Positions 7,598 to 32,037 of a stretch of DNA of 64,000 nucleotides are shown one piece after another. Position 1 is the first letter of the stretch; each line of letters opens with the position of its first letter. Source of the DNA: Actinotalea sp. JY-7876 (GTDB lineage Bacteria; Actinomycetota; Actinomycetes; Actinomycetales; Cellulomonadaceae); contig NZ_CP059493.1 in assembly GCF_014042015.1 (NCBI RefSeq), forward strand, positions 3,410,001 to 3,474,000. The letters run 5' to 3'. The translations under genes and the position numbers were made by a program. The notes under the pieces are model-generated. The model was given only the letters and a program-made list of their open reading frames with translations. It was not told the DNA's origin and searched no databases.

Positions 7598-7613
7598 GTC
7601 GGCCGGTCAGCAC

Positions 7614-8343: not shown

Positions 8344-8371
8344 CAGCACTGCCGCAGCCCGCGCCGGCCGC

Positions 8372-13531: not shown

Positions 13532-13545
13532 CCCCGGGCCCCACC

Positions 13546-14511: not shown

Positions 14512-14989
14512 GCTCAACGACCCCGTCCTGTACTCGTGGTGGGTCCCCGTGCTGGGCGTGCTGCTCATGGCGCTCGCGGTCGCGTACGTCGTGTGGGCCG
14601 TGCGGCACACGCGCCGCCGCCCCGAGCACGACGCGCCGCCGCCCCCGCCGATACGACGGCTCGGGCCGTACGACGACCCCTTCGCGACAGTGCGGCCCGT
14701 CTACCTGGCCAAGGTGGACGCGCTCGAGCAGCGCTTCGCCGCGGGCGAGCTCGACACGCGCGCGCTCCACCTCGAGCTCAGCGCGGTCGTGCGCGAGTTC
14801 GGCACCGTGCGGCGCGGCGTGGACACGCGTGTGCTGACGCTCAGCGACCTGCGCCGGGTCGACGGCACCCGGACCCTCGCCAACCTCATCGAGACGTACT
14901 ACCGCCCCGCGTTCGCCCGGTACGGCGCCCTCGGCGCGTCCAGCGAACGGGCGATCCAGGGCGCGCGGGAGGTGATCCGGCGATGGTGA
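14498..14989 (+). CDS. Membrane protein of a MoxR/VWA operon, 163 residues
   Basis: One hydrophobic segment (about 16-34, VPVLGVLLMALAVAYVVWAV) is followed by a cytoplasmic helical domain rich in Arg and Leu (LAKVDALEQRFAAGELDTRA, LANLIETYYRPAFARYG). The position equals that of the small DUF4381-type or BatC-type subunit in other MoxR operons. The GTG start lies inside the DUF58 gene; the stop overlaps the VWA gene start (ATG at 14983). Confidence 0.75.
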   Translation: MPVDELNDPVLYSWWVPVLGVLLMALAVAYVVWAVRHTRRRPEHDAPPPPPIRRLGPYDDPFATVRPVYLAKVDALEQRFAAGELDTRALHLELSAVVREFGTVRRGVDTRVLTLSDLRRVDGTRTLANLIETYYRPAFARYGALGASSERAIQGAREVIRRW

Positions 14990-17024: not shown

Positions 17025-17839
17025 CCGTCACACCGCTCGAGCGGCAGCGCCGCGTGCGCCGACGCTGGCTGGTCTGGGCGACCCTGCCCCTCTGGCTCGG
17101 CGCCTTCGTCTTCGGGACGCACCTCGCGGTGATGAACATCGTCGCCGCGACGGCGCGTGGGCAGTACCACGACGGCAGCATCGGCGGCGCCGCCGTCGGC
17201 TGGACGTTCCTCAAGAGCACCGACCCGGTCGAGAAGTGGAAGGCGCCGTTCGGCCTGGGCACCACCCTGACCAAGGGCGAGGACGGCATCCTCGGCCAGT
17301 TCTACCTGGTGGACGCGCTCGAGGTGGCACCCGACGACCCGACGACCCAGTGCCTCATCCTCATCAACTACGCGATCGCGCTCGAGATGACGGGCGACGA
17401 GGCGCTCGCGTCCGCCAAGGAGCTCGCGGCGTGGGCCGACGAGGCGCAGAGCTATGTGGACGCCGGGCAGGAGTACCCGCCCGGCGTGCCGTGGTCCGAC
17501 GCGACGCCCGAGGAGCTCCGCGCCGACGCCGCCGAGGAGGCCGAGTGGGCCGAGCGCGACTACGCGGAGGCCGTCCAGGCGCGCGAGGAGTGCGAGCCCG
17601 AGGGCCAGTCGTCCGAGCAGCAGCAGCAGAACGAGGAGAGCAGCGAGCGCCTGGAGGAGAAGCAGGAGGAGGCGCAGGGCGAGCAGGAGCAGCAGGAGCA
17701 GGAGCAGGAGCAGGACCAGAGCGAGGAGGAGCGGCGCCAGGAAGAGCTCGAGCAGCGCAACCGCGAGGCGCAGCAGCAGGCCGAGCGCGAGCGCCAGGAG
17801 CAGGAGGGCGAGGGCGGCGCCGGCACCAAGAACTGGTGA
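17021..17839 (+). CDS. Membrane-anchored protein with Gln/Glu-rich coiled-coil tail (BatC-like position)
   Basis: 272 residues. An N-terminal membrane segment (about 16-40, LVWATLPLWLGAFVFGTHLA) is followed by a folded helical region (QFYLVDALEVAPDDPTTQCL, ALEMTGDEALASAKELAAWA), perhaps TPR-like. From about residue 195 the protein is nearly all Gln, Glu, Arg, for example EQQEQEQEQDQSEEERRQ, which should form a long charged coil. The last gene of the Bat-like operon; the low-complexity tail is unusual. Confidence 0.75.
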   Translation: MTVTPLERQRRVRRRWLVWATLPLWLGAFVFGTHLAVMNIVAATARGQYHDGSIGGAAVGWTFLKSTDPVEKWKAPFGLGTTLTKGEDGILGQFYLVDALEVAPDDPTTQCLILINYAIALEMTGDEALASAKELAAWADEAQSYVDAGQEYPPGVPWSDATPEELRADAAEEAEWAERDYAEAVQAREECEPEGQSSEQQQQNEESSERLEEKQEEAQGEQEQQEQEQEQDQSEEERRQEELEQRNREAQQQAERERQEQEGEGGAGTKNW

Positions 17840-17919
17840 CGGACGGGCCCCCGGAACCTCCGGGCGCCACGCGCGTCGATCCGTTCGGGACGGCGCGCCG
17901 TGAGACCCACGTCACCGGA

Positions 17920-17925
17920 TAGGTT
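17920..17925 (+). promoter_or_regulatory. Possible -10 element for the TelA/PknG operon
   Basis: TAGGTT (17920-17925) fits TANNNT about 50 bases before the TelA start; no good -35 box is visible. It lies in the only gap longer than 50 bases between 17839 and 30467, the natural place for the operon promoter. Confidence 0.35.
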
Positions 17926-17973
17926 GGCACGCACGCGGACCGCCCTCCGGCGGACCGCAGGAAGGGACGAGCG

Positions 17974-19224
17974 ATGAGCACCCAGGACCCGAATGCGGCG
18001 CAGGCCGCGCGGCTGGCCCCGCCCGCCACGGTCGAGCAGCCGCTCGTCCTCTCGGCGCCCGAGCCGATCAGGCCCGTCGCGGCGACGGCGGCCCCCGCCA
18101 TGGCGCCCGCCGTCGACGCGGCGGCGATCCCGGGGCTGGACGCGAAGGTCGACACCTACCTCTCGTCGCTGCTCGCGGCCGAGGCCGCCTCGCCCGCGTT
18201 CGCCGCCCAGGCCGCCGACGTGCGGACGATGGGCGACCGTGACATCCGCTCGGCCGCCGAGTCCTCCAACCGGCTGCTGCAGACCCCGGTCCGCGCCATC
18301 ACCGAGGGCGGTCTCGCGTCGGGCTCCAAGGTCGGCAGCACGCTGCTCGAGCTGCGGCGCACGGTCGAGGACCTGGACCCGTCCGAGGCGTCGGCGACGA
18401 AGAAGTTCCTGGGCATCTTCCCGTTCGGCGAGAAGCTGACCGACTACTTCCGCAAGTACCAGTCCGCGCAGTCGCACCTCAACGCGATCATGCACTCGCT
18501 GCGCGACGGGCAGGACGAGCTCCGCAAGGACAACGTCTCGCTGAACATGGAGAAGACGGCGCTGTGGGAGGCCATGGCGCGGCTCAACCAGTACGTCTAC
18601 GTCTCCGAGCGGCTCGACGCACGCCTGTCGGCGACCATCGCCGACCTCGAGGCCACCGACCCCGACAAGGCCCGCGCCCTGCGCGACGACGTGCTCTTCT
18701 ACGTCCGCCAGAAGCACCAGGACCTGCTGACCCAGCTGGCGGTCTCGATCCAGAACTACCTCGCGATCGACATCCTCATCCGCAACAACATCGAGCTCAT
18801 CAAGGGCGTGGACCGCGCGTCGACCACGACGCTCTCGGCGCTGCGCACGGCCGTCATCGTCTCCCAGGCGCTGACGAACCAGAAGCTCGTCCTGGACCAG
18901 ATCACCGCCCTGAACACGACGACATCGAACCTCATCGAGCGCACGTCGCAGATGCTCAAGGACAACTCGGCCGCGATCCAGGAGCAGGCGGCCTCGGCGA
19001 CGATCGGCCTGCCGCAGCTCCAGACCGCGTTCGCGAACATCTACGCCACGATGGACGCGATCGACACCTTCAAGGTCGAGGCGCTCGACTCGATGGCGAC
19101 GACGATCGGCACGCTCCAGACCGAGGTCACCAAGTCGCAGTCGTACCTCGACCGCGTCCGGCAGCACGACGAGCGGACCGCCGCCGGCAGCCTCGACCTC
19201 GACGGCACGGGCGGCGGCCGGTGA
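17974..19224 (+). CDS. TelA-family protein (toxic anion resistance family)
   Basis: 416 residues, mostly long helices. Typical TelA features are KKFLGIFPFGEKLTDYFRKY, then LNQYVYVSERLDARL, QNYLAIDILIRNNIELIKGV and a TLSALRTAVIVSQALTNQK helix. The family name comes from tellurite resistance, but its usual role is unclear and seems linked to envelope stress. It is followed by an XpaC-like protein, as in Bacillus (xpaC-yaaN). A GGAAGGGA site precedes the ATG. First gene of the ten-gene PknG operon. Confidence 0.88.
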   Translation: MSTQDPNAAQAARLAPPATVEQPLVLSAPEPIRPVAATAAPAMAPAVDAAAIPGLDAKVDTYLSSLLAAEAASPAFAAQAADVRTMGDRDIRSAAESSNRLLQTPVRAITEGGLASGSKVGSTLLELRRTVEDLDPSEASATKKFLGIFPFGEKLTDYFRKYQSAQSHLNAIMHSLRDGQDELRKDNVSLNMEKTALWEAMARLNQYVYVSERLDARLSATIADLEATDPDKARALRDDVLFYVRQKHQDLLTQLAVSIQNYLAIDILIRNNIELIKGVDRASTTTLSALRTAVIVSQALTNQKLVLDQITALNTTTSNLIERTSQMLKDNSAAIQEQAASATIGLPQLQTAFANIYATMDAIDTFKVEALDSMATTIGTLQTEVTKSQSYLDRVRQHDERTAAGSLDLDGTGGGR

Positions 19225-19266
19225 CGGTGGGGGCGCGCCCGCAGGCGGCCACGAGGTCCGGGACGG

Positions 19267-19863
19267 GTGCGCATGGGCGCGTTCGGTGACCTGCTGGCGC
19301 GCCTGACCGGACGCAGCGCGCAGCCGTCCCCGCCCCCGGGGCCCACGGTGCCCGCGGTGCCGACCGCCGCGGACCTGCTGGCGGCGCTCGACCGGGTGGA
19401 GGCGCTCGTGGCCGACGGCGCGGTGCCCGGCCCGGTCGCGTCGCGCGTCGGCCGGGTGGTGCGCGTGGTCCGCGACGCCGTCCCGCGCCTCGAGCGCCTC
19501 GGCGCGGGCAGCGAGACGGCGTACGTCGTCATGGCCACCGCGACCGACTACCTGCCCGAGGCCGTGACGAGCTACCTGCGCCTGCCCCGCGAGTGGGCGA
19601 ACTCGCGCCCCGTCGACAACGGGCGGACGTCGCTCATGGTGCTCATCGACCAGCTCGACCTGCTCGGCCGCACGATGGACCAGGTGCTCGACGCGGTGAA
19701 CCGCTCGGACGCGGCGGCCCTGGTCGCGCACGGCCGCTTCCTCACCGAGAAGTTCGGCCACGCCTCCTCGGGCGGCGCGCTCGACGTCGGCACGGGCGGC
19801 GGCACGCCGGGTCCCGACGGCGCGGACGACGGCCGCCTGCGACCGCCCGGGAGCGTCGCGTGA
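19267..19863 (+). CDS. XpaC-like helical partner of TelA, 198 residues
   Basis: A soluble helical protein. The central part AADLLAALDRVEALVADG, then ATDYLPEAVTSYLRLP and SLMVLIDQLDLLGRTMDQVL, resembles the helical domain of XpaC-type proteins that are encoded beside TelA in other bacteria. The C-terminus is a Gly-rich tail. The start is GTG 19267 or ATG 19273, and its stop overlaps the AAA+ gene start. The assignment rests on gene order and a weak pattern match. Confidence 0.6.
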   Translation: MRMGAFGDLLARLTGRSAQPSPPPGPTVPAVPTAADLLAALDRVEALVADGAVPGPVASRVGRVVRVVRDAVPRLERLGAGSETAYVVMATATDYLPEAVTSYLRLPREWANSRPVDNGRTSLMVLIDQLDLLGRTMDQVLDAVNRSDAAALVAHGRFLTEKFGHASSGGALDVGTGGGTPGPDGADDGRLRPPGSVA

Positions 19864-21323
19864 CCGGCCTCGCCGCGGCGCTCGACGCCCTGGCCGACGT
19901 CGGCCGAGGTGCCGGCCTGCCCGACGACGCCGTGCGCGCCGAGGGCGCGGCGCTCGCCGCGACGCTGGCCGAGTCCGCGCCCGGGGCGCCGGCGGACTGG
20001 GCGACGGCGGTCGACCCGTCGCCGCTGCCCGCGAGCCAGGCGTTCTTCGACGCGGCCGCCCGGGGTCGGCGGTGGCGCACGGCGCCCACGGACCTGCTCG
20101 CGCGGCTCGCGACCGAGGGCTCGGACCGCACGGACGCCTACGCCGACGCGCTGCTCGGCGTCGCGACGGCGGCGTGCACGCTCGGCACCCCGACCGAGCG
20201 CGTGGTGGCCAACGCGACGCGCGCGTGCGCGGCCCAGATCGCCGCCGTGCCCGGCCGCAGCCTCGCGGACCTGACCCGGGTGGGGGCGGCCGGGCCGACG
20301 GCGCCCGGCACCGCGGACCGGGGGGCGCCCGGCGCCGTCCGGACCGCCCCTGCCGGCACCGCCGAGCCCGAGCCGGAGCCCGAGCCGGAGCGCCGCTCGG
20401 TCGAGGAGCTCCTGGCCGAGCTCGACGCGCTCGTCGGCCTCACCGACGTCAAGCGCGAGGTGCACCAGCAGGCCGCCGTCCTGCGGATGGAGAAGCTGCG
20501 CGCGGCGCACGGCCTGCGCACCCCCGCGATCTCGCGGCACCTCGTCTTCACCGGCAACCCCGGCACGGGCAAGACGACCGTCGCGCGGCTCGTCTGCGGC
20601 ATCTACGCCGCCCTCGGGCTGCTGGCCAAGGGGCACCTCGTCGAGGTCGACCGCTCCGAGCTCGTCGGCCAGTACCTCGGGGAGACCGCGGTCAAGACCT
20701 CGGCGGTCGTCGCGAGCGCCATCGACGGGGTGCTGTTCATCGACGAGGCCTACGCGCTCGCCGGCGACCAGTACGGCCGCGAGGCGGTCGACACCCTGGT
20801 CAAGGAGATGGAGGACCACCGCGAGGACCTCGTCGTGATCGTGGCGGGCTACCCCGGTCCCATGGCGCGCTTCGTGGACAGCAACCCCGGCCTCGAGAGC
20901 CGGTTCCGCACGACGGTGCAGTTCGCGGACTACTCCGACGAGGAGCTCGAGGCGATCTTCGTGCGGCTCGCCGAGGCCGCGGACTTCACGCCGACGCCGG
21001 AGTGCCTCGTGCGGTTCCGGGAGATCCTCGCGGCGACCCCGCGCGGCGAGGGCTTCGGCAACGGCCGCTTCGCGCGGAACGTGCTCGAGGGCGCCATCGG
21101 CCGCCACGCCTGGCGCCTGCGCGACGTCGCCGAGCCGACGGCGGACGACCTGCGCCTGCTGCTGCCGCGCGACCTCGAGGAGCGCCCGGACGAGCCCCTC
21201 GCCGTCGGGACCGACGCGGGGACCGACACCGCGACCGGCACGGGCCCCGACGCCGACGCCGCACCGACCGCCGAGCCGACGATCGCACCCACCGAGCCGA
21301 CCGCCCAAGGAGGCGCCGCGTGA
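19860..21323 (+). CDS. CbxX/SpoVK-type AAA+ ATPase
   Basis: 487 residues. An N-terminal helical region (about 1-150) ends in a Pro/Glu linker. The AAA+ core has LDALVGLTDVKREVHQQAAV, Walker A VFTGNPGTGKTTVA, Walker B GVLFIDEAYALAGD and an arginine finger segment NPGLESRFRTTVQF, all typical of the CbxX/CfxQ (SpoVK) family. A low-complexity Asp/Thr tail follows residue 445. These ATPases act as remodelling activators in rubisco activation and in type VII secretion (EccA). GTG 19860 overlaps the preceding stop. Its client here may be the neighbouring TelA or signalling proteins, which is inference. Confidence 0.88.
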   Translation: MTGLAAALDALADVGRGAGLPDDAVRAEGAALAATLAESAPGAPADWATAVDPSPLPASQAFFDAAARGRRWRTAPTDLLARLATEGSDRTDAYADALLGVATAACTLGTPTERVVANATRACAAQIAAVPGRSLADLTRVGAAGPTAPGTADRGAPGAVRTAPAGTAEPEPEPEPERRSVEELLAELDALVGLTDVKREVHQQAAVLRMEKLRAAHGLRTPAISRHLVFTGNPGTGKTTVARLVCGIYAALGLLAKGHLVEVDRSELVGQYLGETAVKTSAVVASAIDGVLFIDEAYALAGDQYGREAVDTLVKEMEDHREDLVVIVAGYPGPMARFVDSNPGLESRFRTTVQFADYSDEELEAIFVRLAEAADFTPTPECLVRFREILAATPRGEGFGNGRFARNVLEGAIGRHAWRLRDVAEPTADDLRLLLPRDLEERPDEPLAVGTDAGTDTATGTGPDADAAPTAEPTIAPTEPTAQGGAA

Positions 21324-22705
21324 CCGCTACGGCCCCACCCGGACGGCCCGCCCCGCCCGCGGCCTGGCCGGGACCGCCCGGGCAGCGCCCCGGCGCCCCG
21401 ACGGGCGCCCGCGCGACCGGCGCCGCGCTGAGCACCACGGGCGGCACCGGCACGGCCGTCGCCACCGTGCCGGGCACCTCGGTCCCCCTGCCCACCGGCC
21501 GCCCGACGCCCCGCCGGATGCGGCTCGTCGCCCTCGGGCTGGTCGCCGTGGGAGTGCTCGTCGGGCTCGTCGGCGCCTGGTCGTTCAGCAACGCGGACGC
21601 GGCGCTCGAGCGCGCCGACGCCAACGCGGCCCAGCTGGTCCGCCTCCAGGAGCTGCAGACCCGGCTCGTCAGCGCCGACGCGAGCGCGACCAACGCCTTC
21701 CTCGTGGGCGGGCTCGAGCCGCCGGACCGGCGCGCGGTCTACGACGACGCGATGACGACCGCCGCCGAGCTGGTGGCGCAGGCCGCGCGCGCGCAGCCGG
21801 CCGACGGCACCGCCCTCGCGGCCCTGAACGTGGCGATGCTCGACTACGCCGCCGACGTCGAGCAGGCCCGGGCCGCGAACCGCCAGGGCCTGCCGGTGGG
21901 GGCGCAGTACCTGCGCAACGCCAGCGCCACGCTGCGCGCTGACGCGCTGCCGGTCCTCGCCGCGCTGATCGAGGCCAACGAGGACCGCGTGAGCTCGGAG
22001 TTCGGTGCCGCCCGGGCGGCCTGGATCCCGGTGGTCCTGGTCTCGCTGCTGGCCCTCGGCGCCGTCGTCGCCGCCTCGGTGTGGCTCGCGCGCCGCACGC
22101 ACCGCTACCTCAACCTGCGGCTCGTCGGGGCGGGCGTGGTGCTGCTCGTGCTGCTCGTCGGGTCCACCGTGACCCTGGGCTCGGTGTCCACGGCCGTCGA
22201 CCGCACGCGCGTCGGGGACTTCGCGGCCGCCAGCGCCCTGTCCCGCGCGCGCCTCGCGGCCTACGACGCCAAGGCGAACGAGAGCCTCACGCTCATCTCG
22301 CGCGGGTCCGGCGCCGCGTTCGACGAGGCGTGGGAGGCGTCGAGCGCCATCACGCTCGACACCCTGCGCGACGCGCACGTCGCCGGCGCGGAGGACCTCC
22401 GGTCCGCGTGGGACACCTACGCCACCAGCCACTACCTGGTGCGCGACGCCGACGCCGCGGGTGAGTGGGACCTCGCCGTCGAGGACGCGACGAGCGACGC
22501 CGAGGACTCCGTCAACGCGACCTTCGCCGCGTTCGACGCCCGGACGGCCGACGCGCTCGCGGAGGCCTCGCAGGGGACGTCGGACACCCTGGCGGAGGCG
22601 CGCAGCGGGCTCGGCCTCGCCGTGTGGCTCGCCGCCCTCGCCGGGCTCGCGGTGGCCGGGCTGTCCTGGACCGGCTTCGCCCGACGGATCGAGGAGTACC
22701 GGTGA
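21320..22705 (+). CDS. glnX: GlnX-like membrane sensor protein
   Basis: 461 residues. After a Pro-rich start there are four membrane segments at about 68-90, 235-257, 266-290 and 430-453. The first loop (LVRLQELQTRLVSADASATN) and the second (SALSRARLAAYDAKANESL) are long external helical bundles, like ligand-sensing modules. In mycobacteria and corynebacteria, GlnX has this topology and passes the state of the binding protein GlnH to kinase PknG. Here the GlnH-like gene follows with a four-base overlap and PknG is two genes downstream, so the identification is strong by context. AAGGAGG precedes the GTG start. Confidence 0.75.
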   Translation: MTATAPPGRPAPPAAWPGPPGQRPGAPTGARATGAALSTTGGTGTAVATVPGTSVPLPTGRPTPRRMRLVALGLVAVGVLVGLVGAWSFSNADAALERADANAAQLVRLQELQTRLVSADASATNAFLVGGLEPPDRRAVYDDAMTTAAELVAQAARAQPADGTALAALNVAMLDYAADVEQARAANRQGLPVGAQYLRNASATLRADALPVLAALIEANEDRVSSEFGAARAAWIPVVLVSLLALGAVVAASVWLARRTHRYLNLRLVGAGVVLLVLLVGSTVTLGSVSTAVDRTRVGDFAAASALSRARLAAYDAKANESLTLISRGSGAAFDEAWEASSAITLDTLRDAHVAGAEDLRSAWDTYATSHYLVRDADAAGEWDLAVEDATSDAEDSVNATFAAFDARTADALAEASQGTSDTLAEARSGLGLAVWLAALAGLAVAGLSWTGFARRIEEYR

Positions 22706-23691
22706 GCGCGACCACCCGAGGAACCCGCGGCGTCACGATCCGCCGCGCCGTCGCCGCGCTCGCGGTGGCGGCCGCGACCGTGCTGACGGGCTGCACGTCC
22801 GGGGCGTACCCGGAGACGGCGGTGCCGACCCCCGAGCCGACGGCGCCGGCCGACCCCCCGGCCGCCGCCGAGCCCGCGCAGTGCGCCGACCCGCTCATGT
22901 CCTACGCCCCGCAGGGGCCCCCGCCCCCGCCCGGCCAGGTGCCCGACGGGTCGACGATGGCGGAGATCCGTGACTCCGGCCGCCTGGTCGTCGGGGTCTC
23001 GGCCGACTCGCTCCTGCTGGGTGCGCGCGACCCGATCTCGGGCCAGATCCAGGGCTTCGACATCGACATGGCCCGGCTGGTCGCCGAGGCGGTCACGGGC
23101 AGTGCCGACCGCCTCGAGCTGCGGGTCATCACGGCCGCCCAGCGCCTGCCGCTGCTCCAGGACGGCACCGTGCACCTCGTGGCGCGCAACCTGAGCATCA
23201 CGTGCGACAGGTGGGAGGAGATCGCGTTCTCCGCCGAGTACTACCGCTCGGGCCAGAAGCTCCTCGTGCCGCTCGAGTCGACCGCGATGTCGCTGGACGA
23301 CCTGGCCGGCCAGCGCGTGTGCGCTCCCGCGGGCTCGACGAGCCTCGCCAAGCTCGAGGAGTTCGAGCAGGTCGAGGCCGTGCCGGCGGCCACCCACACC
23401 GACTGCCTGGTGCGCTTCCAGCAGGGCGAGGTCGACGCCATCACGGGTGACGACACCGTCCTGGCCGGACTCGTCGCGCAGGACCCCTACGCCAAGGTCG
23501 TCGGCGAGGCGTTCACCGCCGAGCACTACGGCCTGGGCATGAACGCGGACGACGTCGACCTCGTGCGCTTCGTCAACGCCGTGCTGGACCAGGCGAAGGC
23601 CGACGGCACCTGGACGGCGTCGTACGACCGGTGGCTCGCCGACGCCCTCGGCGCCGCCCCCGCGCCCCCGGCGTCGGTGTACGGACGATGA
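22702..23691 (+). CDS. glnH: GlnH-like solute-binding lipoprotein (family 3, Glu/Asp type)
   Basis: 329 residues. Signal peptide with lipobox VLTGC (Cys at about 31), a Pro-rich linker, then a family 3 binding fold: IRDSGRLVVGVSADSLLLGA, then QGFDIDMARLVAEAVTG, DRWEEIAFSAEYYRSGQKLL and EHYGLGMNADDVDL. No permease or ATPase genes are adjacent, so it is more likely a sensor subunit than a transporter part. This matches GlnH of the GlnX-GlnH-PknG system, which senses aspartate/glutamate. GTG start within GTGAGCGCG, the same start context as three other genes in this operon. Confidence 0.85.
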   Translation: MSATTRGTRGVTIRRAVAALAVAAATVLTGCTSGAYPETAVPTPEPTAPADPPAAAEPAQCADPLMSYAPQGPPPPPGQVPDGSTMAEIRDSGRLVVGVSADSLLLGARDPISGQIQGFDIDMARLVAEAVTGSADRLELRVITAAQRLPLLQDGTVHLVARNLSITCDRWEEIAFSAEYYRSGQKLLVPLESTAMSLDDLAGQRVCAPAGSTSLAKLEEFEQVEAVPAATHTDCLVRFQQGEVDAITGDDTVLAGLVAQDPYAKVVGEAFTAEHYGLGMNADDVDLVRFVNAVLDQAKADGTWTASYDRWLADALGAAPAPPASVYGR

Positions 23692-23712
23692 CGCGTGCGA
23701 GCCGGTGACACC

Positions 23713-24876
23713 GTGAGCGCGCCGCCCGTCGCGCCCGACGCGCCCGCCGCGTGGGGTCGCCCGGTCGCGCCCACCGCCATGGCGGGCTACCTCGAGCGGC
23801 TCGCGGCGTGGCGCGACGCGCGCCGGTCCGAGCTCGACGCGCTGGACCGGGCGGCGCTCGCCTCCACCGACGACCTCACGGGTGACGTCACGCTCGCGAT
23901 GGCCCTGTGGCAGTCCGTGGCCACGCGCCACGACGAGCTCGTGCGCGTGTGGGACGGCGGGCGCGTCGGCAGGGTCGAGCTCGCCCGCCTCAGCGCGATG
24001 ATCTGGGGCCGGTCCGACGCCGCCGTGGTCGCCACGGGCGGCGCCGCGCCCGCGACCACGGGGGTGTCCCTGCCCGAGGCGTGCCGCCTGTCCGACGCCG
24101 TGACCGCCCAGCTGCGCCGCCGGCTCGCGCTCGAGACCGTGTCCGCCGACCTCGCCGGGCACCTCGCGGCGCTCCGCGCGAGCGTCGAGCGGATCCGGGA
24201 CCTCGTCGCGGCCGCACCCGCGGGCCGCGCCCGCACCGAGGCGACCGCCGTGCTCGGGCGGCTCTCGGAGCGGGTCGACGACGTCACGGCGCGCGCCCGG
24301 CGGGGCGCCGACGTCGGCGGCCTGGTCGGACCGCTCGAGACCGACGTCGCGCACGCCGAGCGGGATCTCATCGTGGGCGCCGCCACGCGGCGGGACGACG
24401 AGCGCGACCTCGAGCGCGCGCGCGCCTGGCGCACCGAGCTCGACGCCCGCGACGACGAGGTGGCCGCGCTCGCCGACCGCTGCGTCGCGCAGGTCGCCCC
24501 GGCGCCGGTCCTCGGCATCCCGCGCGTCGACGCGCTCGGCCCCGTGCCGAGCGACGCGGGCGAGGTCGACGCCTACCTCGTGCGCCTCGACGCCGTCGAG
24601 CGCGCCCTGGCGCGGGCGCAGGAGGCGTACGCCGCCCCGCTCGCCGAGCTCACGGACCTGCGGGGGCTGCTCGACGCGTCGCGCGCGCAGGCCGCCGCGC
24701 GCGGGCGCGACCGCTACCCCGAGGTGGCGGCGCTCGCCGGGCACGCCGCCGCGGTGCTGGCCGCCGCGCCCGTCGACCTGCCGCGCGCACGCGCGGTCGT
24801 CGGCGCCTACCGCAACCTCATCGACGCGCCGCCGCCGGCGCTGGCCCCCGACGCCACCCCTGGACGGAGCTCATGA
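23713..24876 (+). CDS. Hypothetical helical protein between GlnH and PknG, 387 residues
   Basis: Not recognised. Nearly all helical, Ala/Arg/Asp-rich, with coiled-coil-like stretches (VSADLAGHLAALRASVERIR, RLDAVERALARAQEAYAAPL) and no Cys-rich or membrane part. The start chosen is GTG 23713, which shares the GTGAGCGCG context of neighbouring starts; an in-frame GTG at 23695 is possible. The stop overlaps the PknG start (ATGA). Its place suggests a scaffold or adaptor linking the membrane sensor to the kinase, which is inference. Confidence 0.7.
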   Translation: MSAPPVAPDAPAAWGRPVAPTAMAGYLERLAAWRDARRSELDALDRAALASTDDLTGDVTLAMALWQSVATRHDELVRVWDGGRVGRVELARLSAMIWGRSDAAVVATGGAAPATTGVSLPEACRLSDAVTAQLRRRLALETVSADLAGHLAALRASVERIRDLVAAAPAGRARTEATAVLGRLSERVDDVTARARRGADVGGLVGPLETDVAHAERDLIVGAATRRDDERDLERARAWRTELDARDDEVAALADRCVAQVAPAPVLGIPRVDALGPVPSDAGEVDAYLVRLDAVERALARAQEAYAAPLAELTDLRGLLDASRAQAAARGRDRYPEVAALAGHAAAVLAAAPVDLPRARAVVGAYRNLIDAPPPALAPDATPGRSS

Positions 24877-27137
24877 CCTGCACCCAGCCCGGTTGCACCG
24901 GCACGATCGTCGACGGCTACTGCGACGTCTGCGGCTCCCCGCCCGACGCCGCACCCGCCGCGGCCGCCGGGTCCGGCACCACGCCCGCCCGCGCGGCGGC
25001 CGGCGCCGCCCCGGACGCCGGACCCGCGGGGGCCGACGGCGCGACGTCGACCCGCACGTCCAGCCGCCTCGCCTCGACCGCCATGGGCTCCGCGCGCACG
25101 GGACGGACCACCGGCGTCACCCGGCGCGTCGGCGGCTCGTCCAAGCGCCTGCGCGCCGCGCGCCTCGGCGCCGGCCTGACGACCATCGCGCCCGCACCGC
25201 CGATCGACGCCGCGACGGCGATCATGGCGAACCCCGAGGTGGCCGAGCACAAGCGGTTCTGCCCCTCGTGCGGCGCCGAGGTCGGCCGCTCCGTCGACGG
25301 GCGGCCCGGGCGCACGGAGGGCTTCTGCCCGCAGTGCCGCTCGCCCTACTCGTTCACGCCCAAGCTGAAGCCCGGCGACCTCGTCGGCGGGCAGTACGAG
25401 GTCGCCGGCGCGCTGGCCCACGGCGGGCTGGGCTGGATCTACCTCGCGCGCGACAAGAACGTCTCCGACCGGTGGGTGGTCCTCAAGGGCCTGCTCAACA
25501 CCGGTGACGCCGACGCGCTCGCCGCCGCGATCGCCGAGAGCCAGTTCCTGGCCCAGGTGGAGCACCCGCGCATCGTCGAGATCTACAACTTCGTCACGCA
25601 CGAGGGCGCCGGCTACACCGTCATGGAGTACGTCGGCGGGCACTCCCTCAAGGGCCTGCTCAAGGAGCGCATGGAGGCGGCGGGCGGACGGTACGACCCG
25701 TTCCCCCTCGACCAGGCGATCGCGTACGTGCTCGAGATCCTGCCCGCGTTCGAGTACCTGCACGACCTCGGCCTCGTGTACTGCGACTTCAAGCCGGACA
25801 ACCTCATCCAGATCGGCGACGACGTCAAGCTCATCGACCTCGGCGGCGTGCGCCGGATCGACGACCAGGACTCGGCGATCTACGGCACGGTCGGGTACCA
25901 GGCGCCCGAGGTCGCCGAGATCGGCACGTCGGTCGCCTCCGACATCTACACGCTCGGCCGCACGCTGCTGGTGCTCGCGATGGAGTTCCGCGGGTACCAG
26001 TCGACGTACGTGGCGAGCCTGCCGCCCGTGGACCAGACGCCGCTGTTCCAGCGGTACGACTCCTTCTACCGGCTCGTGGCCAAGGCGTGCGCGCCCGACC
26101 CGGCGGACCGGTTCGCCACCGTGGCCGAGCTCCGCGTCCAGCTCCACGGCGTCCTGCGCGAGGTCGTCGCGATCGACCGCGCCGCGGGCGACACCGACGC
26201 CGCCGCGACCGACGCGGCTCCCTCCCTGCTGTTCCACGGGCCGGACTCGGCGACCGCCGTCGCGGGCTGGCAGGACCTGCCGGCGCTGCGCGTGGACACC
26301 GGCGACCCCCAGACGGGCTGGCTGGCGACGGTCGACGTCCGGGACCCGCAGGCGCGCCTGGTCCAGCTCGAGCGCGCTCCCGAGCGGTCCGCCGAGGTGC
26401 TGCTCGCCATCGCGCGTGCCGCGCTCGACGCCGGCCGCCGCGACCTCGTCTCCAAGGCGGTCGACGAGCTGCTCGCGGCGGACCCGTGGGAGTGGCGGGC
26501 GGTGTGGTTCCAGGGGCTCGCGGCGCTCGCCGCGGGCGACGGCCACGGGGCGCAGGCGTCCTTCAACGCCGTCTACGGGCAGGTGCCGGGCGAGCTCGCG
26601 CCCAAGCTCGCGCTCGCGCTGGCCTGCGAGGCGAGCGGCGAGCCCGAGATCGCCGAGTCCCTCTACGCGACGTGCGCGCGGACCGACGCCGCCTACGTCC
26701 CGCCGTCGGCCTTCGCGATGGCGCGCATCCGGGCCGCGCGCGGCACGGTCCGCGAGGCCGTCGCCGCCCTCGACCTGGTCCCCGCGACGTCGCGCGCGTA
26801 CACCGAGGCGCGGCGCCAGCGCGCCGCCCTGCTCGTCGCGTCCGACGGCGGGCTGCCGGCGCTCGCGGAGGCGATGACGTCGCTGCACGACGTCGGCATC
26901 GACCCCGCCGAGCGCACGCGGCTCACGGCCGGCGCCCTGGAGGCGGCGCTCGCGCACGTCCGCGAGCACGGTCCGCAGAAGGCGGTGACCATCGGGACGT
27001 GGCCCGCCGAGGAGAAGTCGCTGCGCGACGGGCTCGAGCGCACCTACCGCGAGCTCGCGGCGGCGGCGGCCACGCCGGCCGAGCGCATCGCGCTGGTCGA
27101 CGCCGCCAACGGCGTGCGGCGCTGGACGCTGCGGTGA
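24873..27137 (+). CDS. pknG: PknG-type serine/threonine protein kinase with zinc ribbon and TPR domain
   Basis: 754 residues, close to mycobacterial PknG (about 750). A short zinc ribbon comes first (Cys 3, 8, 17, 20; DGYCDVCG). A rubredoxin-like site follows (FCPSCG at about 130 and FCPQC at about 150). The kinase domain runs from about 168 to 430, with Lys205 in VVLKGLL, catalytic Asp305 in YCDFKPDN and a DLG instead of DFG at 322-324, as in PknG. The C-terminal 280 residues are TPR-like helices. PknG is cytosolic and controls 2-oxoglutarate metabolism through FHA protein GarA/OdhI. The extra first ribbon matches ribbons in the phosphatase and FHA genes that follow. Confidence 0.92.
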   Translation: MTCTQPGCTGTIVDGYCDVCGSPPDAAPAAAAGSGTTPARAAAGAAPDAGPAGADGATSTRTSSRLASTAMGSARTGRTTGVTRRVGGSSKRLRAARLGAGLTTIAPAPPIDAATAIMANPEVAEHKRFCPSCGAEVGRSVDGRPGRTEGFCPQCRSPYSFTPKLKPGDLVGGQYEVAGALAHGGLGWIYLARDKNVSDRWVVLKGLLNTGDADALAAAIAESQFLAQVEHPRIVEIYNFVTHEGAGYTVMEYVGGHSLKGLLKERMEAAGGRYDPFPLDQAIAYVLEILPAFEYLHDLGLVYCDFKPDNLIQIGDDVKLIDLGGVRRIDDQDSAIYGTVGYQAPEVAEIGTSVASDIYTLGRTLLVLAMEFRGYQSTYVASLPPVDQTPLFQRYDSFYRLVAKACAPDPADRFATVAELRVQLHGVLREVVAIDRAAGDTDAAATDAAPSLLFHGPDSATAVAGWQDLPALRVDTGDPQTGWLATVDVRDPQARLVQLERAPERSAEVLLAIARAALDAGRRDLVSKAVDELLAADPWEWRAVWFQGLAALAAGDGHGAQASFNAVYGQVPGELAPKLALALACEASGEPEIAESLYATCARTDAAYVPPSAFAMARIRAARGTVREAVAALDLVPATSRAYTEARRQRAALLVASDGGLPALAEAMTSLHDVGIDPAERTRLTAGALEAALAHVREHGPQKAVTIGTWPAEEKSLRDGLERTYRELAAAAATPAERIALVDAANGVRRWTLR

Positions 27138-28288
27138 GCGCGCCGACGACGGACGGTCCCGTGGTCTGCGCCGGCTGCGGCACGGTCGCGCCCCTCGGGG
27201 CCCGCTTCTGCGAGGAGTGCGGGGCCGACCTGCCCCTGGTGGCCGCCCCGCCGCCGCAGCCGGACGTCCGGCGGGAGTCGGCGCCCACGGTGCCGACAGT
27301 CGCGCTCCGCTCCTCCGCCCGCGGCGGGCGCCGGGCGGCGGCGGTCGCACCGCCGGTGACGCGCGCGTGCGCCGAGTGCGGAGGCGACGTCGACGCCGAC
27401 GGCTACTGCACCCAGTGCGGGACCAAGGCGCCGCTGCCGCGCGACCACATGATCGAGCAGCCCCAGCCGTGGGTCGCGTCGGTGAGCGACAGGGGCCGCC
27501 GCCACCACCGCAACGAGGACGCCGCGGCGGTCGACGCCGCGCCCGTGCCCGGGACGTGGGCCGCCCTCGTCGTGTGCGACGGCGTCTCGAGCTCCGAGGC
27601 CTCGGACGTGGCCTCGCTCGCGGCGGCGCGCGCGGCGTGCGACGTGCTCGTGCGCGAGCGCGGCGCCGGTCTGGCGCAGGGCTCAGCGCTCGCCGCGCTC
27701 GCCGCCAAGCGGCTGGCCGCGGCCGGCGCGGCCGCCGCCAAGGCGGTCGAGGAGGTGACGCACGACGAGCACGGCGACAGCCCGCCGTCGTGCACCTTCG
27801 TGGCCGCCGTGCTGGACGGCGAGCGGCTCACGGTCGGCAACGTCGGCGACAGCCGGGCGTACTGGCTGCCCGACGCGGGCGAGCCGGCCGTGCTCACCAC
27901 CGACGACTCGTGGGCCGCCGAGCAGATCGCCGACGGCGTCCCGCAGGCGGACGCCGAGGCGGGCCCGCAGGCCCACGCCATCACGCGCTGGCTCGGCGTC
28001 GACGCGCACGACCAGGTCCCCCGCGTCACCCACCTGACGCTCGACGGCCCGGGCTGGCTGCTGCTGTGCTCGGACGGCCTGTGGAACTACTGCTCGGAGC
28101 CGACGGCGGCGGCGGGCGTGGTCGCTCGGGCCGCGGCGGGAGCGGGCGGCGAACCGCTCGCGACCGCGCAGGCCCTGGTGCGGTGGGCGAACGCGCAGGG
28201 CGGCAAGGACAACATCACCGTCGCGCTGGCGAGGCTCGACACCCCTACGGTTGCGACAGCACGGACCCACGAAGGAGACCCGGCATGA
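27134..28288 (+). CDS. PP2C-type protein phosphatase with two N-terminal zinc ribbons
   Basis: 384 residues. Two zinc ribbons lead: CAGCG with FCEECG (residues 12-29), and CAECGGDVDADGYCTQCG (about 80-97). The PP2C domain starts at SVSDRGRRHHRNEDAAAVD and has VVCDGVSSSE, VGNVGDSRAYWL, LLLCSDGLWNY and GGKDNITVALA, with all metal-binding Asp residues apparent. It should reverse phosphorylation by the PknG encoded just before it; the GTG start overlaps the kinase stop. The second ribbon is very similar to the kinase ribbon. Confidence 0.9.
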   Translation: MSAPTTDGPVVCAGCGTVAPLGARFCEECGADLPLVAAPPPQPDVRRESAPTVPTVALRSSARGGRRAAAVAPPVTRACAECGGDVDADGYCTQCGTKAPLPRDHMIEQPQPWVASVSDRGRRHHRNEDAAAVDAAPVPGTWAALVVCDGVSSSEASDVASLAAARAACDVLVRERGAGLAQGSALAALAAKRLAAAGAAAAKAVEEVTHDEHGDSPPSCTFVAAVLDGERLTVGNVGDSRAYWLPDAGEPAVLTTDDSWAAEQIADGVPQADAEAGPQAHAITRWLGVDAHDQVPRVTHLTLDGPGWLLLCSDGLWNYCSEPTAAAGVVARAAAGAGGEPLATAQALVRWANAQGGKDNITVALARLDTPTVATARTHEGDPA

Positions 28289-29568
28289 CGAGCTTCACCG
28301 CGGCGGTGTACCAGAACGAGTTCCTGGCGGACGGCAGCACGGACGTGCACGCGATCGTCACGGTCGAGTGCAGCGGGGCCGGCCAGGCCGGGCAGAGCGG
28401 CGGCGGGGGCGCGGCCGAGCTGGTCCTCATCGACACCTCCGGCTCGATGGGCCACGAGGGCGTGCGGGCCGCGCAGGAGGCCGCGAACGCCGCGCTCGAC
28501 CAGGTGGTCGAGGGCACGTGGTTCGCGGTCATCGCGGGCAGCCACGTCGCGCGCCTCGTGTACCCGACGGACGTGCGCGAGGGCGCGATGACGCGCATGG
28601 ACCGGCGCACGCGCGAGGAGGCGCGGCGCGCCATCGCGACGCTCGCGCCCGACGGCGGCACGGCCATGGGGACGTGGCTCGAGCTGGCGGCGCGCGTGGC
28701 GACGTCGGTGCCGGGCGTGACGCAGCGCCACGCGATCCTGCTCACCGACGGCAAGAACCAGCACGAGTCGCCGCAGGAGCTGGACGCGCGCCTGCGCTCC
28801 GCGATCGGCGTCTTCCAGTGCGACTGCCGCGGGGTCGGCGCGGCGTGGGAGGTCGGCGAGGTGCGCCGCATCGCGCAGGCGCTCATGGGCACGGTCGACC
28901 TCATCCCGCGGCCGGACCAGATGGCCGCGGAGTTCGCGTCGCTCATGCGGGCGGCGATGAGCCGGGGCGTCGCTGCGGCGGACCTGCGGGTGTGGGCGCC
29001 GCAGGGCGCGCAGGTGCTCTTCGTCCGGCAGGTCTCGCCGTCGGTGGAGGACCTGACGCCGCGCCGGCGCGAGGTCAACCCGCTCACGGGCGCGTACCCG
29101 ACCGGCAGCTGGGGCGACGAGTCGCGCGACTTCCACGTCGCGGTCCGGCTGCCCGCGTCGCGCGCCGTCGGCCAGGAGCAGCTCGCGGCGCGCGTGCAGC
29201 TCGTCGTCGGCGACGAGGTCACCGCCCAGGGCCTGGTCAAGGCGCAGTGGTCGGACAACAGCGAGCTGACGGCGCAGATCAACCCCGAGGTCGCGCACTA
29301 CACGGGCCAGGCCGAGCTCGCCCAGGTCATCCAGGACGGCCTCGCGGCGCGCGCGATGGGCGACGAGCGGACCGCGACGGCGAAGCTCGGGCGCGCCGCA
29401 CAGCTCGCGGCGCAGACGGGCAACGAGGAGGCGACGTCGAAGCTGCGTCGCGTGGTCGAGATCGACGAGCCGGCGACCGGCAAGGTACGGCTCAAGAAGG
29501 ACGTCGCCAAGCTCGACGAGATGGCGCTCGACACGGCCTCGACCAAGACGACGCGGGTGCGCAAGTGA
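28285..29568 (+). CDS. VWA-domain protein of the PknG operon
   Basis: 427 residues, no membrane segment. The VWA domain (about 40-215) has an intact metal site LVLIDTSGSMG and RHAILLTDGKNQHES. Residues 225-350 look like a beta-rich domain (DFHVAVRLPASRAVGQEQ), followed by a helical C-terminus with KLGRAAQLAAQTGNEEAT. Its ATG overlaps the phosphatase stop and has an AAGGAG site at 28272-28277. This architecture occurs beside FHA and PP2C genes in actinomycetes; it could be a phospho-controlled adhesin-like or assembly partner of the AAA+ ATPase. The function is unknown. Confidence 0.85.
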   Translation: MTSFTAAVYQNEFLADGSTDVHAIVTVECSGAGQAGQSGGGGAAELVLIDTSGSMGHEGVRAAQEAANAALDQVVEGTWFAVIAGSHVARLVYPTDVREGAMTRMDRRTREEARRAIATLAPDGGTAMGTWLELAARVATSVPGVTQRHAILLTDGKNQHESPQELDARLRSAIGVFQCDCRGVGAAWEVGEVRRIAQALMGTVDLIPRPDQMAAEFASLMRAAMSRGVAAADLRVWAPQGAQVLFVRQVSPSVEDLTPRRREVNPLTGAYPTGSWGDESRDFHVAVRLPASRAVGQEQLAARVQLVVGDEVTAQGLVKAQWSDNSELTAQINPEVAHYTGQAELAQVIQDGLAARAMGDERTATAKLGRAAQLAAQTGNEEATSKLRRVVEIDEPATGKVRLKKDVAKLDEMALDTASTKTTRVRK

Positions 29569-30467
29569 GCGCGGTCTGCCCCCAGGGGCACACGAGCGCG
29601 TCGACGGACTACTGCGACACCTGCGGCGCGCCGATCGCCGCGGGCGCGGCGGGCGGTGGTGCGGGTGCGGGAGGCGCGGCCCCGGCGCGCCCGGCGGCTC
29701 CCGCGCCGTCGGTGCTGTCGGGCGGGGTCGCGTGCCCCAACTGCCAGACGAACAACGTCGACGGCGCCCTGTTCTGCGAGGCGTGCGGGTACGACTTCAC
29801 GACCGGGGCGCTCCCGCGCGGCAGCGCGCCGGCGGGCAGTCCGGCGGGCGGTTCGGTCGCTGGTCCGGCGGGTGCGCCGGCGGGTGGCGGTGCGCTCGGC
29901 GGTGCGGAGGGCGGTGCCGCGGCCGGTGGTCCGGCTGGTGAGCCGGCTCCGGGTGCGGCGTCGACGGGTGCTCCGGCCGGTGGCGGCTCCGCGGGCGCAG
30001 GGGCGGCCGGCGCGGCGGCGTCGTCGGGCCCCGGGCCTGTCGCGCCCGCCGTCCCGCTCGAGTGGGTCGCCGAGGTGTGGGTGGACCCGGACTGGTACGC
30101 GGAGCAGGACCAGGCCGACCAGCCGTGCCCGTCGCCGGGCCTGCCGACGACGGTGCCGCTGACGGTCCGGTCGCTCCTCGTGGGTCGCGTCTCGCGCAGC
30201 CGGAACATCCACCCGGAGATCGACTGCGGCACCGACGCGGCCGTGAGCCGCCGCCAGGCGCAGCTCACCACCGACGGGTCGCGCTGGTTCGTGGAGGACC
30301 TCCAGTCCTCCAACGGCACGTACGTCGGCTCGGCGGGCGGCCCGCTCCCGACGCAGGCCCTGGTGCCGGGTCAGCGGCGCGAGCTCGCCGAGGACGACCG
30401 CGTCTACGTCGGGGCGTGGACCCGCATCGTCATCCGCAGGGCCACCCCGGAGGAGCGCACCGCCTGA
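29565..30467 (+). CDS. FHA-domain protein with two N-terminal zinc ribbons
   Basis: 300 residues. The first ribbon is CPQGHTSASTDYCDTCG (residues 5-21), the second CPNCQTNNVDGALFCEACG (about 57-75). A long Gly/Ala/Pro linker follows. The FHA domain (about 195-295) has VRSLLVGRVSRSRNIHPEID, then AAVSRRQAQLT and FVEDLQSSNGTYVG, with the phosphothreonine-binding GR, S and N residues in place (SRRQ instead of SRRH). It is the last gene of the operon and should read phosphorylated partners of the upstream kinase. It lacks the N-terminal phosphosite segment of GarA/OdhI, so it is a different reader. Confidence 0.88.
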   Translation: MSAVCPQGHTSASTDYCDTCGAPIAAGAAGGGAGAGGAAPARPAAPAPSVLSGGVACPNCQTNNVDGALFCEACGYDFTTGALPRGSAPAGSPAGGSVAGPAGAPAGGGALGGAEGGAAAGGPAGEPAPGAASTGAPAGGGSAGAGAAGAAASSGPGPVAPAVPLEWVAEVWVDPDWYAEQDQADQPCPSPGLPTTVPLTVRSLLVGRVSRSRNIHPEIDCGTDAAVSRRQAQLTTDGSRWFVEDLQSSNGTYVGSAGGPLPTQALVPGQRRELAEDDRVYVGAWTRIVIRRATPEERTA

Positions 30468-30477
30468 CGCCCCGAGC

Positions 30478-30710
30478 GCGGAGCGTCGTGGCGAGACACA
30501 CCGGCGTGTCCGGGCACCACGCTCCACACGGGCGCACCCACCACGCCACCACCGCACCACCCCATCAGCGCGGAGCGTCGTGGCGAGACACACCGGCGTG
30601 TCCGGGCACCACGCTCCACACGGGCGCACCCCACCACCGCACCACCGCACCAGCCCATCAGTGCGGAGCGTCGTGGCGAGACACACCGGCGTGTCCGGGC
30701 ACCACGCTCC
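30478..30710. repeat. Three tandem copies of a 48-bp hairpin-forming repeat
   Basis: Copies at 30478-30525, 30570-30617 and 30663-30710 are almost identical and spaced 92 and 93 bases; the spacers are also related (ACACGGGCGCACCC then CCACC-rich). Each copy can fold: GGAGC...GTGG with CCAC...GCTCC outside and GACAC-ACCGGC-GTGTC inside. They fill the gap between the convergent FHA and flavoprotein genes. A simple GGTGCCGGTGTTGGTG-type repeat follows at about 30719-30757. The likely role is bidirectional termination or a dispersed REP-like element. Confidence 0.8.
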
Positions 30711-30762
30711 GCGCTGCGGTGCCGGTGCCGGTGTTGGTGCCGGTGTTGGTGATGGGTGGGCG

Positions 30763-32037
30763 TCAGGGGGGCCCGGGGTCGCCCGGATCCGCCGGGCGGG
30801 CCAGCCACGCGAGCGCGCCGTGGGCCGCCGCGACGCCCGTGCTGAACGACGCCTGGAGCAGGTAGCCGCCGGTCGGGGCCTCCCAGTCGAGCATCTCGCC
30901 GGCGACGAACGTGCCCGGCAGCCGCCGCAGCATCAGCGACTCGTCGACCTCCGACCACGCGACCCCACCGGCCGACGAGATGGCACGGTCGATGGGCATC
31001 GTCCCCGTGACCGCGACGGGCACGGCCTTGACCAGCGCTGCCACGGCCGCCGGGTCACTGGGCAGGGCGCCGCCCACGGACTCGCGGAGCAGGGCCGCCG
31101 CCACCGGGTCCAGCCCGAGCGCGCGCCGCAGCGCCGTGGCCGTGGAGTCCTTGGGCCGACGCCGACCCCAGCGCTCCGCCAGCTGGGTGGCGCTGCGGTC
31201 GGGGCGGAGGTCGACCTCGAGCACGCAGCGCCCGTCGGCGTCGAGCGCGTCGCGCACGGCGGCGCCGATCGCGTACACCGGGCCACCCTCGATCCCGCTG
31301 CGGGTCAGCATCGCGTCACCGCGCGCCGTCGCGCCGGACCGCCCCCGCACCGACACCTGCACGTTCTTCACCGGCGACCCGGCGCACCGGTCGGCGAAGC
31401 CGGGCGACCAGACCACGCACAGCCCGACGTTGGCCGCGCGCAGCGGCGTCACCGCGACGCCCCGCTCGGCGAAGGGGCCGACCCAGCCGCCGTCCGCACC
31501 GAGTCGCGGCCAGGACGCCCCGCCCAGGGCGAAGAGCGTGACGTCGGCGGCGGCCACCTCGGTCACCGTGCCGTCGGGGGCGACGAGCCGGAGCCCGTCC
31601 CCGTCGGTCCACCCGGTCCAGCGCCGGCGCCGCTCGATGCGCACCCCGAGGTCGGCCAGCCGCGCCAGCCAGGCCCGGACCAGCGGCGTCGCACGAAAGG
31701 AGCGCGGGAACACGCGCCCGCTCGACCCGACGAAGGTCTCCTCGCCGAGCCCGGCGCACCACGCGCGCAGGTCCTGGGGACCGAACGCCTCGAGCATCGG
31801 GCGCAGGCGGTCCGCGGCCGCGCCGTAGCGGGCCACGAACCGCTCGGCGGGCTCGGTGTGGGTGAGGTTGAGCCCGCCGTGACCGGCCAGCATGAACTTG
31901 CGCGCCACCGACGGCATCGCGTCGTACACCGTGACGGCCACCCCCGCCTCCGCGAGGCGCTCGGCGGCGATCAGCCCGGCCGGCCCCCCGCCGACGACGG
32001 TCGCGGTCCTGCCCCGGACGACGTCGGCCGCGGTCAC
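30763..32037 (-). CDS. BaiN/TIGR03862-type NAD(P)/FAD-dependent oxidoreductase
   Basis: 424 residues. An N-terminal FAD site ATVVGGGPAGLIAAERLAEA is followed by the family signature KFMLAGHGGLNLTHTEP and FVGSSGRVFPRSFRATPLVR. Near the C-terminus are ISSAGGVAWSEVDESLMLRR and GEMLDWEAPTGGYLLQASFS, all typical of the HI0933-like flavoprotein family. The substrate is unknown. GTG 32037 was chosen because the FAD motif follows about a dozen residues later and the length fits the family; the sequence further upstream does not look coding. Confidence 0.88.
   Translation of the reverse strand: MTAADVVRGRTATVVGGGPAGLIAAERLAEAGVAVTVYDAMPSVARKFMLAGHGGLNLTHTEPAERFVARYGAAADRLRPMLEAFGPQDLRAWCAGLGEETFVGSSGRVFPRSFRATPLVRAWLARLADLGVRIERRRRWTGWTDGDGLRLVAPDGTVTEVAAADVTLFALGGASWPRLGADGGWVGPFAERGVAVTPLRAANVGLCVVWSPGFADRCAGSPVKNVQVSVRGRSGATARGDAMLTRSGIEGGPVYAIGAAVRDALDADGRCVLEVDLRPDRSATQLAERWGRRRPKDSTATALRRALGLDPVAAALLRESVGGALPSDPAAVAALVKAVPVAVTGTMPIDRAISSAGGVAWSEVDESLMLRRLPGTFVAGEMLDWEAPTGGYLLQASFSTGVAAAHGALAWLARPADPGDPGPP

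Follow-up and report, generated by a model that had tools for sequence, protein, structure and literature searches.

A conserved ten-gene actinobacterial cluster places the kinase PknG beside a TelA protein and an AAA+ ATPase

Introduction

Why would PknG, a much studied bacterial Ser/Thr kinase, be encoded in a row of ten genes that also includes a TelA protein and an AAA+ ATPase? The question is raised by a 64,000-nucleotide stretch of the genome of Actinotalea sp. JY-7876 (NZ_CP059493.1, positions 3,410,001 to 3,474,000; hereafter the window, in whose numbering its positions are given), and it is sharpened by TelA, for which we know of no established mechanism. PknG is described in a three-gene operon controlling 2-oxoglutarate metabolism (PMC6069109, PMC9769921, PMC8546545). 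As presented in these papers, GlnH and GlnX control PknG (PMC6069109, PMC9769921), which phosphorylates OdhI/GarA; the FHA domain of OdhI/GarA binds autophosphorylated threonines of PknG, and this recruits the substrate to the kinase (PMC6069109, PMC9769921, PMC8546545). Our literature search found no description of the ten-gene cluster or of the seven-gene core set out below. The ten-gene row, which many soil actinobacteria carry in a fixed order, suggests that PknG controls more than metabolism, and it yields named candidates for missing PknG partners, namely a phosphatase, a phosphothreonine reader, a VWA protein and a TelA-AAA+ arm. For TelA, in turn, a candidate ATPase partner and a short motif offer ways to test its mechanism.

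Results

Ten genes are kept in one order among relatives

The cluster consists of ten co-directional genes on the + strand at 17974-30467, delimited by open reading frame starts and stops together with Pfam and NCBIfam scans, in the order TelA, small protein, AAA+, GlnX, GlnH, Hyp6, PknG, PP2C, VWA and FHA. All ten genes claimed for this interval in the original prediction are present, and its description of few-base overlaps with short gaps after TelA and before 23713 was borne out, as 4-base overlaps make up seven of the nine junctions. The starts of AAA+, GlnX and GlnH each overlap the preceding gene in this way, and four successive overlaps join Hyp6, PknG, PP2C, VWA and FHA. The TelA gene is followed by a gap of 42 bp (48 bp if the ATG at 19273 is used for the small protein), and Hyp6 is preceded by one of 21 bp (3 bp with an alternative start at 23695).

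Bacterial genomes were scanned with a four-sequence PknG alignment and the best 80 loci were kept, which biases the sample to the relatives of the window. Full flanks, defined as more than 7.5 kb before PknG and more than 4.5 kb after it, were available for 63 of the 80, and loci were scored with profiles of the ten cluster families that were built from these same loci. All ten genes in the order of the window were found in 46 of the 63 full-flank loci; nine lack GlnH only, and in four the first three genes, from TelA to AAA+, are missing. Single loci lack GlnX and GlnH (L068), AAA+ and GlnH (L073) or, at a scaffold gap, TelA and the small protein (L074), and one keeps PknG alone of the ten (L081). 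The order is broken in none of the 63, partial sets included, and it is kept over several actinobacterial families and orders. At several junctions, most loci have adjacent genes that overlap; AAA+ and GlnX do so in 51 of 52 measured loci, and GlnX and GlnH in 46 of 51. The claim that these are not chance neighbours therefore survived the order test in relatives. The linkage is directly observed. One signalling-and-remodelling machine, the further proposal, is a conjecture with partial support, and the data divide it into parts: the core also occurs without the three genes from TelA to AAA+, TelA-AAA+ occurs without PknG, and GlnH can be lost with the rest in place. Any common function is inferred.

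The PknG of the window falls (support 91) beside relatives from Terrabacter and Intrasporangium, and that of the same-family genome G207 groups with Cellulomonas. From this placement, the whole cluster may have been transferred.

A seven-gene core and a TelA arm

Outside the relatives, three loci of presumed Streptomyces-like identity carry GlnX-GlnH-Hyp6-PknG-PP2C-VWA-FHA, and Nonomuraea has the same seven genes with GlnX-GlnH placed at the other end. The Hyp6 profile matches these Streptomyces-like and Nonomuraea loci weakly (34-46 bits), and two Micromonosporaceae loci, L078 and L082, are matched just as weakly (36 bits). GlnX-GlnH-PknG only was found in Nocardia farcinica, Tsukamurella and a Mycobacterium-like locus, and another Nocardia plasmid carries PknG alone. 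In a 95-row PknG tree (TelA parts present in 70 rows, absent from 19, and 6 rows cut), the TelA presence label requires four changes, which is consistent with one gain of the TelA parts and later losses in L117, L119 and L081, whose placement is unsure because of long branches. These distributions suggest that the seven genes form the older unit, to which the three genes from TelA to AAA+ were added within one branch. The branch with the TelA arm holds Micrococcales, Kineosporiaceae, Kribbella, Nocardioides and Propionibacteriaceae.

A second, divergent PknG adjoins a VWA gene in large genomes of the same class (L110 6611-10278, L112 5978-10124 and L114 6061-10179), with no GlnX, GlnH or PP2C profile matches.

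TelA is tied to PknG, and its motif to the AAA+ ATPase

The TelA protein (17974-19224) belongs to the toxic-anion-resistance family, with a PF05816 score of 306 bits against a cut-off of 30. Co-occurrence was counted across the order to which the window belongs, in 198 genomes that include its own, at thresholds of E<=1e-15 for PknG_TPR and E<=1e-20 for TelA, the two scans being taken as covering the same genomes. PknG_TPR was found in 24 and TelA in 62 of the 198. TelA is present in 23 of the 24 PknG genomes and in 39 of the 174 without PknG (Fisher p 1.7e-12, ancestry ignored), and in 20 of the 24 it lies within 10 kb of PknG on the same strand. In genomes G239 and G300, with PknG and no nearby TelA, a contig edge truncates the cluster; in G260 the cluster is reduced to GlnX-GlnH-PknG-FHA and an ordinary TelA lies elsewhere; and in the fragmented assembly G290 the cluster lacks TelA, Hyp6 and VWA. 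A TelA tree was built from 75 proteins, 63 linked (L122, L133 and L134 counted) and 12 ordinary, with no Firmicutes TelA. Linked TelA forms one side of a long branch with 100/100 support, against the 12 ordinary TelA; the choice of root decides which of the two sides is the ancestral one.

The AAA+ ATPase (19860-21323; PF00004, PF17866) resembles CbxX, SpoVK and EccA and carries an additional N-terminal region. Its scores lie below the equivalog cut-offs, with 260 of 423 bits for SpoVK (TIGR02881), 232 of 467 for EccA and 218 of 459 for CbbX. Because all three curated cut-offs are missed, we place it in the CbxX/SpoVK/EccA group and with none of the named proteins. The motifs GNPGTGKTT and NPGLxSRF each occur in all 66 AAA+ homologues, window included. 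The AAA+ of L056 (6437-7651) and L060, whose starts are uncertain, have 170 and 185 residues before Walker A, compared with a median of 240.

The TelA of the window contains APAMAP at residues 40-45, and the pattern APx(M/I/L)AP is found near the N-terminus in 59 of 60 linked TelA (1% in shuffles), in none of the 12 ordinary TelA and not in the distant L123. In two genomes of one genus (G117 and G227), TelA adjoins AAA+ without other cluster profile matches nearby, and no PknG_TPR match at E<=0.001 was found in either genome; the TelA and AAA+ frames of G117 share 4 bases. The motif is present in the TelA of both of these PknG-less pairs. Conversely, the L073 TelA is the sole linked one without the motif and the sole one of the 60 at a locus without AAA+. 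The motif therefore follows the AAA+ ATPase and not PknG, and we propose, from these sequence comparisons, that it may be the site gripped by the ATPase. In another arrangement, the AAA+ would serve Hyp6, GlnX or the kinase complex, and TelA would be a passive PknG substrate. The near-constant overlap of the AAA+ and glnX genes given above speaks for it, but AAA+ and TelA persist together in G117 and G227 without GlnX, Hyp6 or PknG matches nearby, and the TelA motif follows the AAA+ gene; we consider this arrangement improbable.

The predicted TelA model is a long helical hairpin with two very long helices (mean pLDDT, the predicted local distance difference test, 72.7). Elongated helical proteins make up most of its fold matches, and many of these are membrane-active; chance alone can give helical bundles scores of this size. 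Hydropathy marked nothing in the seven cluster proteins other than GlnX, GlnH and Hyp6, and neither TelA nor the small protein beside it has a transmembrane segment.

That small protein (19267-19863, alternative ATG at 19273; no Pfam family) had been called XpaC-like, which it is by its place beside TelA. The label proved weakly supported, as none of 27 members of its family matches the XpaC model PF10112 (Halogen_Hydrol). The family profile does match small proteins beside nine of the 12 ordinary TelA genes (22-68 bits); eight of these nine neighbours were scanned and gave no PF10112 match. In a PF10112 scan of eight genomes, none was over the cut-off, and weak matches occurred only at other places in two of the eight.

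The sensor proteins and the kinase

GlnX (21320-22705) is identified as a GlnX family transmembrane signal transducer by NF058618 (288 bits, cut-off 250), scores 93 bits against the stricter equivalog NF041460 (cut-off 780), and has four hydrophobic segments (65-92, 228-258, 262-293 and 427-453). GlnH (22702-23691) is a solute-binding lipoprotein, with PF00497 (SBP_bac_3), a lipobox pattern and a signal-sequence region in the hydropathy profile, and it matches the Mycobacterium tuberculosis GlnH structures 6h2t/6h1u at E 1.4e-64. The module had been put forward as aspartate/glutamate-sensing. The ligand is uncertain because the side-chain contact Trp232 (M. tuberculosis numbering) is His in the window. 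Arg147 is kept and Thr162 is Asn, so that the Arg147/Thr162/Trp232 contact set for aspartate/glutamate is incomplete in this protein. The backbone contacts Ser164, Arg169 and Asp250 are kept. Across 56 GlnH sequences (the window and 55 loci), Arg147 is kept in 55, Thr162 in 14 and Trp232 in one; the Trp232 position is His in 42, and Ser164 is Thr in 47. Aspartate/glutamate sensing by this GlnH is plausible, but not simply transferable.

GlnH loss is concentrated in a branch of 16 PknG rows around Propionibacteriaceae, in which 14 loci cover the GlnH slot. Thirteen of these lack GlnH (the nine GlnH-only losses, L073 and three cut loci), and L062 keeps it; GlnX is retained in this branch in diverged form, down to 34-140 bits in some loci. 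Outside the branch, L068 (Ornithinimicrobium) has in the GlnX slot a membrane protein (7229-8815) with no GlnX profile match and no Pfam match, a possible sensor swap.

PknG (24873-27137) comprises an N-terminal zinc-ribbon pattern, rubredoxin, kinase and TPR parts, with PF16919, PF00069 and PF16918 all over cut-off, and it is the only PknG_TPR match of the genome at E<=0.001. An OdhI/GarA homologue, a candidate PknG substrate, is encoded in trans at G000:C1:1734283. It scores 165 bits, where the cut-off is 200, and has DTTISF and not ETTS at its TT site. This homologue fits an ordinary PknG nutrient-sensing operon in which TelA and AAA+ would be co-expressed cargo, sharing a promoter and uncoupled from PknG. 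The known task of PknG, as described, is metabolic control through OdhI/GarA (PMC8546545), and both a TelA-AAA+ pair without PknG and a core without TelA exist. Yet the order is kept over several families and orders, the TelA linked to PknG is a separate clade set off by a long branch, and loci can lose GlnH and still keep TelA, AAA+ and PknG as a group. Taking both sides together, an ordinary operon is an unlikely account with a real share of the probability.

Between the sensor and the kinase lies Hyp6 (23713-24876), which has no Pfam or NCBIfam match. Its AlphaFold2 model is all-helical with a mean pLDDT of 92.1, no Foldseek match was found at E<=0.001, and hydropathy gives one borderline hydrophobic stretch.

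Phosphatase, VWA and FHA proteins

The last three genes encode a PP2C-type phosphatase with an N-terminal double zinc ribbon (27134-28288; PF13672, PF00481, PF12773), a VWA protein with a MIDAS motif and a VWA_3_C domain (28285-29568; PF13768, PF18571) and an FHA-domain protein with N-terminal zinc ribbons (29565-30467; PF00498, PF13240, PF12773). Zinc-ribbon patterns thus stand at the N-termini of three cluster proteins, PknG, PP2C and FHA. In homologues, window included, GDSR is present in 71 of 71 PP2C, DxSGSM in 69 of 71 VWA and GRxS in 68 of 68 FHA proteins. By analogy, the PP2C protein is the likely phosphatase of PknG, and the FHA protein may read phosphothreonine on PknG or on one of its substrates. 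FHA is the only one of the ten with a match to a type VI secretion system (T6SS) model, a weak one to TagH (17.7 of 120 bits).

A kinase, PP2C and VWA set with zinc ribbons is also the make-up of the TerY-P triad, and a SpoVK-family AAA+ is described near some CoCoNuT neighbours of such triads (PMC11090510), so the three proteins might instead belong to a TerY-P or anti-phage kinase system and act as a defence or stress trigger. PADLOC models match PknG (PD-T4-6 kinase, up to 128 bits), AAA+ (IetA, 33 bits) and PP2C (PDC-M21C, 20 bits). Against this, the best PD-T4-6 match is confined to the kinase domain (PknG residues 172-437), the zinc-ribbon pattern of PknG is N-terminal and not C-terminal, the VWA protein has VWA_3_C and matches no PADLOC model, none of the ten cluster proteins matches a nuclease model in the Pfam scan, and the locus is stable across families. 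A defence role has, in our estimate, little chance of being correct.

The start of the putative operon and the flanking DNA

The intergenic region 5' of TelA (17840-17973, + strand) is a likely promoter region with the -10-like sequence TAGGTT. In 60 upstream regions of 130 bases, taken from related loci with some start codons uncertain, TANNNT occurs in 68%, compared with 34% in single-base shuffles, and its commonest form is TAGATT. A strict sigma-70 scan of 17000-31000 found no site. Directly upstream on the same strand, a MoxR-DUF58-VWA-VWA set (12122-17839) ends 134 bp before TelA; none of the 80 PknG loci has a match to the proteins of its five MoxR-type genes. An 81-nt repeat whose core is nearly palindromic stands three times at 30445-30710, directly at the FHA stop and beyond it. 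When as many as 3 mismatches are allowed, the only other place in the genome with the 46-base core is G000:C1:880130, with one copy (3 mismatches). On the minus strand, 11159-11698 has a weak TNT domain match (PF14021, 30.6 bits) near small unnamed genes.

Discussion

A proposed threonine-phosphorylation switch with an envelope output

We give about an even chance to the reading that the conserved cluster is a threonine-phosphorylation switch with TelA and AAA+ as its envelope-remodelling output. GlnH, where present, would bind a small ligand outside the membrane and act on GlnX, which would switch on PknG inside the cell. PknG would then phosphorylate threonines of OdhI/GarA, encoded elsewhere in the genome, as is established in other actinobacteria, and presumably of partners in the cluster; PP2C would take the phosphate off, the zinc-ribbon FHA protein would read phosphothreonine, and the VWA protein and Hyp6 would serve as scaffolds. 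In one actinobacterial branch, the switch would have gained an output arm of TelA and a dedicated AAA+. TelA would be an elongated helical envelope-stress protein, and the ATPase would engage its N-terminal APx(M/I/L)AP tag and pull TelA apart or recycle it.

For the envelope side, a mutant of the TelA-like Listeria gene lmo1967 is reported with raised sensitivity to nisin and tellurite (PMC12791056), and a table of the Lactococcus membrane-stress transcriptome lists an XpaC-like gene and telA1 with cesSR (PMC3139573). Together, the PknG literature, the TelA mutant, the cesSR table and the TelA model suggest a phosphorylation switch with an envelope output.

Several observations weigh against this reading. 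The core occurs without TelA and AAA+ in other lineages, and the link is therefore lineage-specific; within the TelA-bearing part of the tree, L117, L119 and L081 are PknG loci without TelA. Both PknG-less pairs belong to one genus, and motif and AAA+ were lost together at one locus; each case thus amounts to one event. The confidence of the TelA model is middling, with fold-match scores in a range common for helical bundles. Some functional patterns are incomplete among homologues: the PknG catalytic loop pattern is found in 66 of 79, the AAA+ pore pattern in 55 of 66, PP2C DGVS in 56 of 71 and the FHA SRR pattern in 23 of 68. A GarA-type ETTS site was not noticed in the cluster FHA protein, for which no dedicated search was made.

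A bolder form is tentative and in our judgement rather unlikely. In it, PknG, known as a metabolic kinase, would in this actinobacterial branch drive a nutrient- or envelope-gated membrane-remodelling machine, with TelA polymers as the mechanical element, AAA+ as a dedicated, tag-reading TelA unfoldase, and PknG, PP2C, FHA and VWA setting the timing by threonine phosphorylation. TelA and AAA+ would then be a bacterial analogue of an ESCRT-III/Vps4-like pair.

Comparison with known systems

The GlnX-GlnH-PknG operon of Mycobacterium and Corynebacterium shares with the cluster the same three families in the same relative order and the rubredoxin, kinase and TPR make-up of PknG; here a homologue of its OdhI/GarA substrate, with a score below the cut-off, is encoded in trans. 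The cluster differs in having seven more genes, with Hyp6 between glnH and pknG, an extra N-terminal zinc-ribbon pattern on PknG, and pocket residues His for Trp232 and Asn for Thr162 relative to M. tuberculosis GlnH.

ClpV is the AAA+ of the T6SS. The threonine phosphorylation pathway of that system (TagQRST, PpkA, PppA and Fha) resembles the cluster in combining an envelope sensor, a kinase, a PP2C and an FHA reader, and its output is described as an assembled machine (PMC10482370); PpkA is reported to carry a VWA domain (PMC1262709). In contrast, there are no secretion genes among the ten, and the kinase family, sensor and output differ. The likeness is one of logic, with homology compared at the level of domain types alone.

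With the TerY-P triad, the cluster shares adjacent VWA, PP2C and kinase genes (24873-29568), zinc ribbons and, as described for some triads, a tellurite-resistance association and a nearby SpoVK-family ATPase (PMC11090510). Its kinase, however, is PknG with rubredoxin and ends in TPR in place of the C-terminal zinc ribbon, its VWA protein has VWA_3_C, a membrane sensor is attached, and no nuclease is among the ten.

The Firmicutes TelA-XpaC pair (Listeria lmo1966-1967, Lactococcus llmg_1115-1116), as far as it is described, shares a TelA gene adjacent to that of a small protein and an envelope-stress context. Unlike that pair, linked TelA has the APxMAP motif and an AAA+ partner and is separate from ordinary actinobacterial TelA, and the small protein of the cluster does not match the XpaC model.

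Because several defining features of the T6SS pathway and of TerY-P differ, we class the cluster as a probable extension of the GlnX-GlnH-PknG module, from which its GlnH pocket departs.

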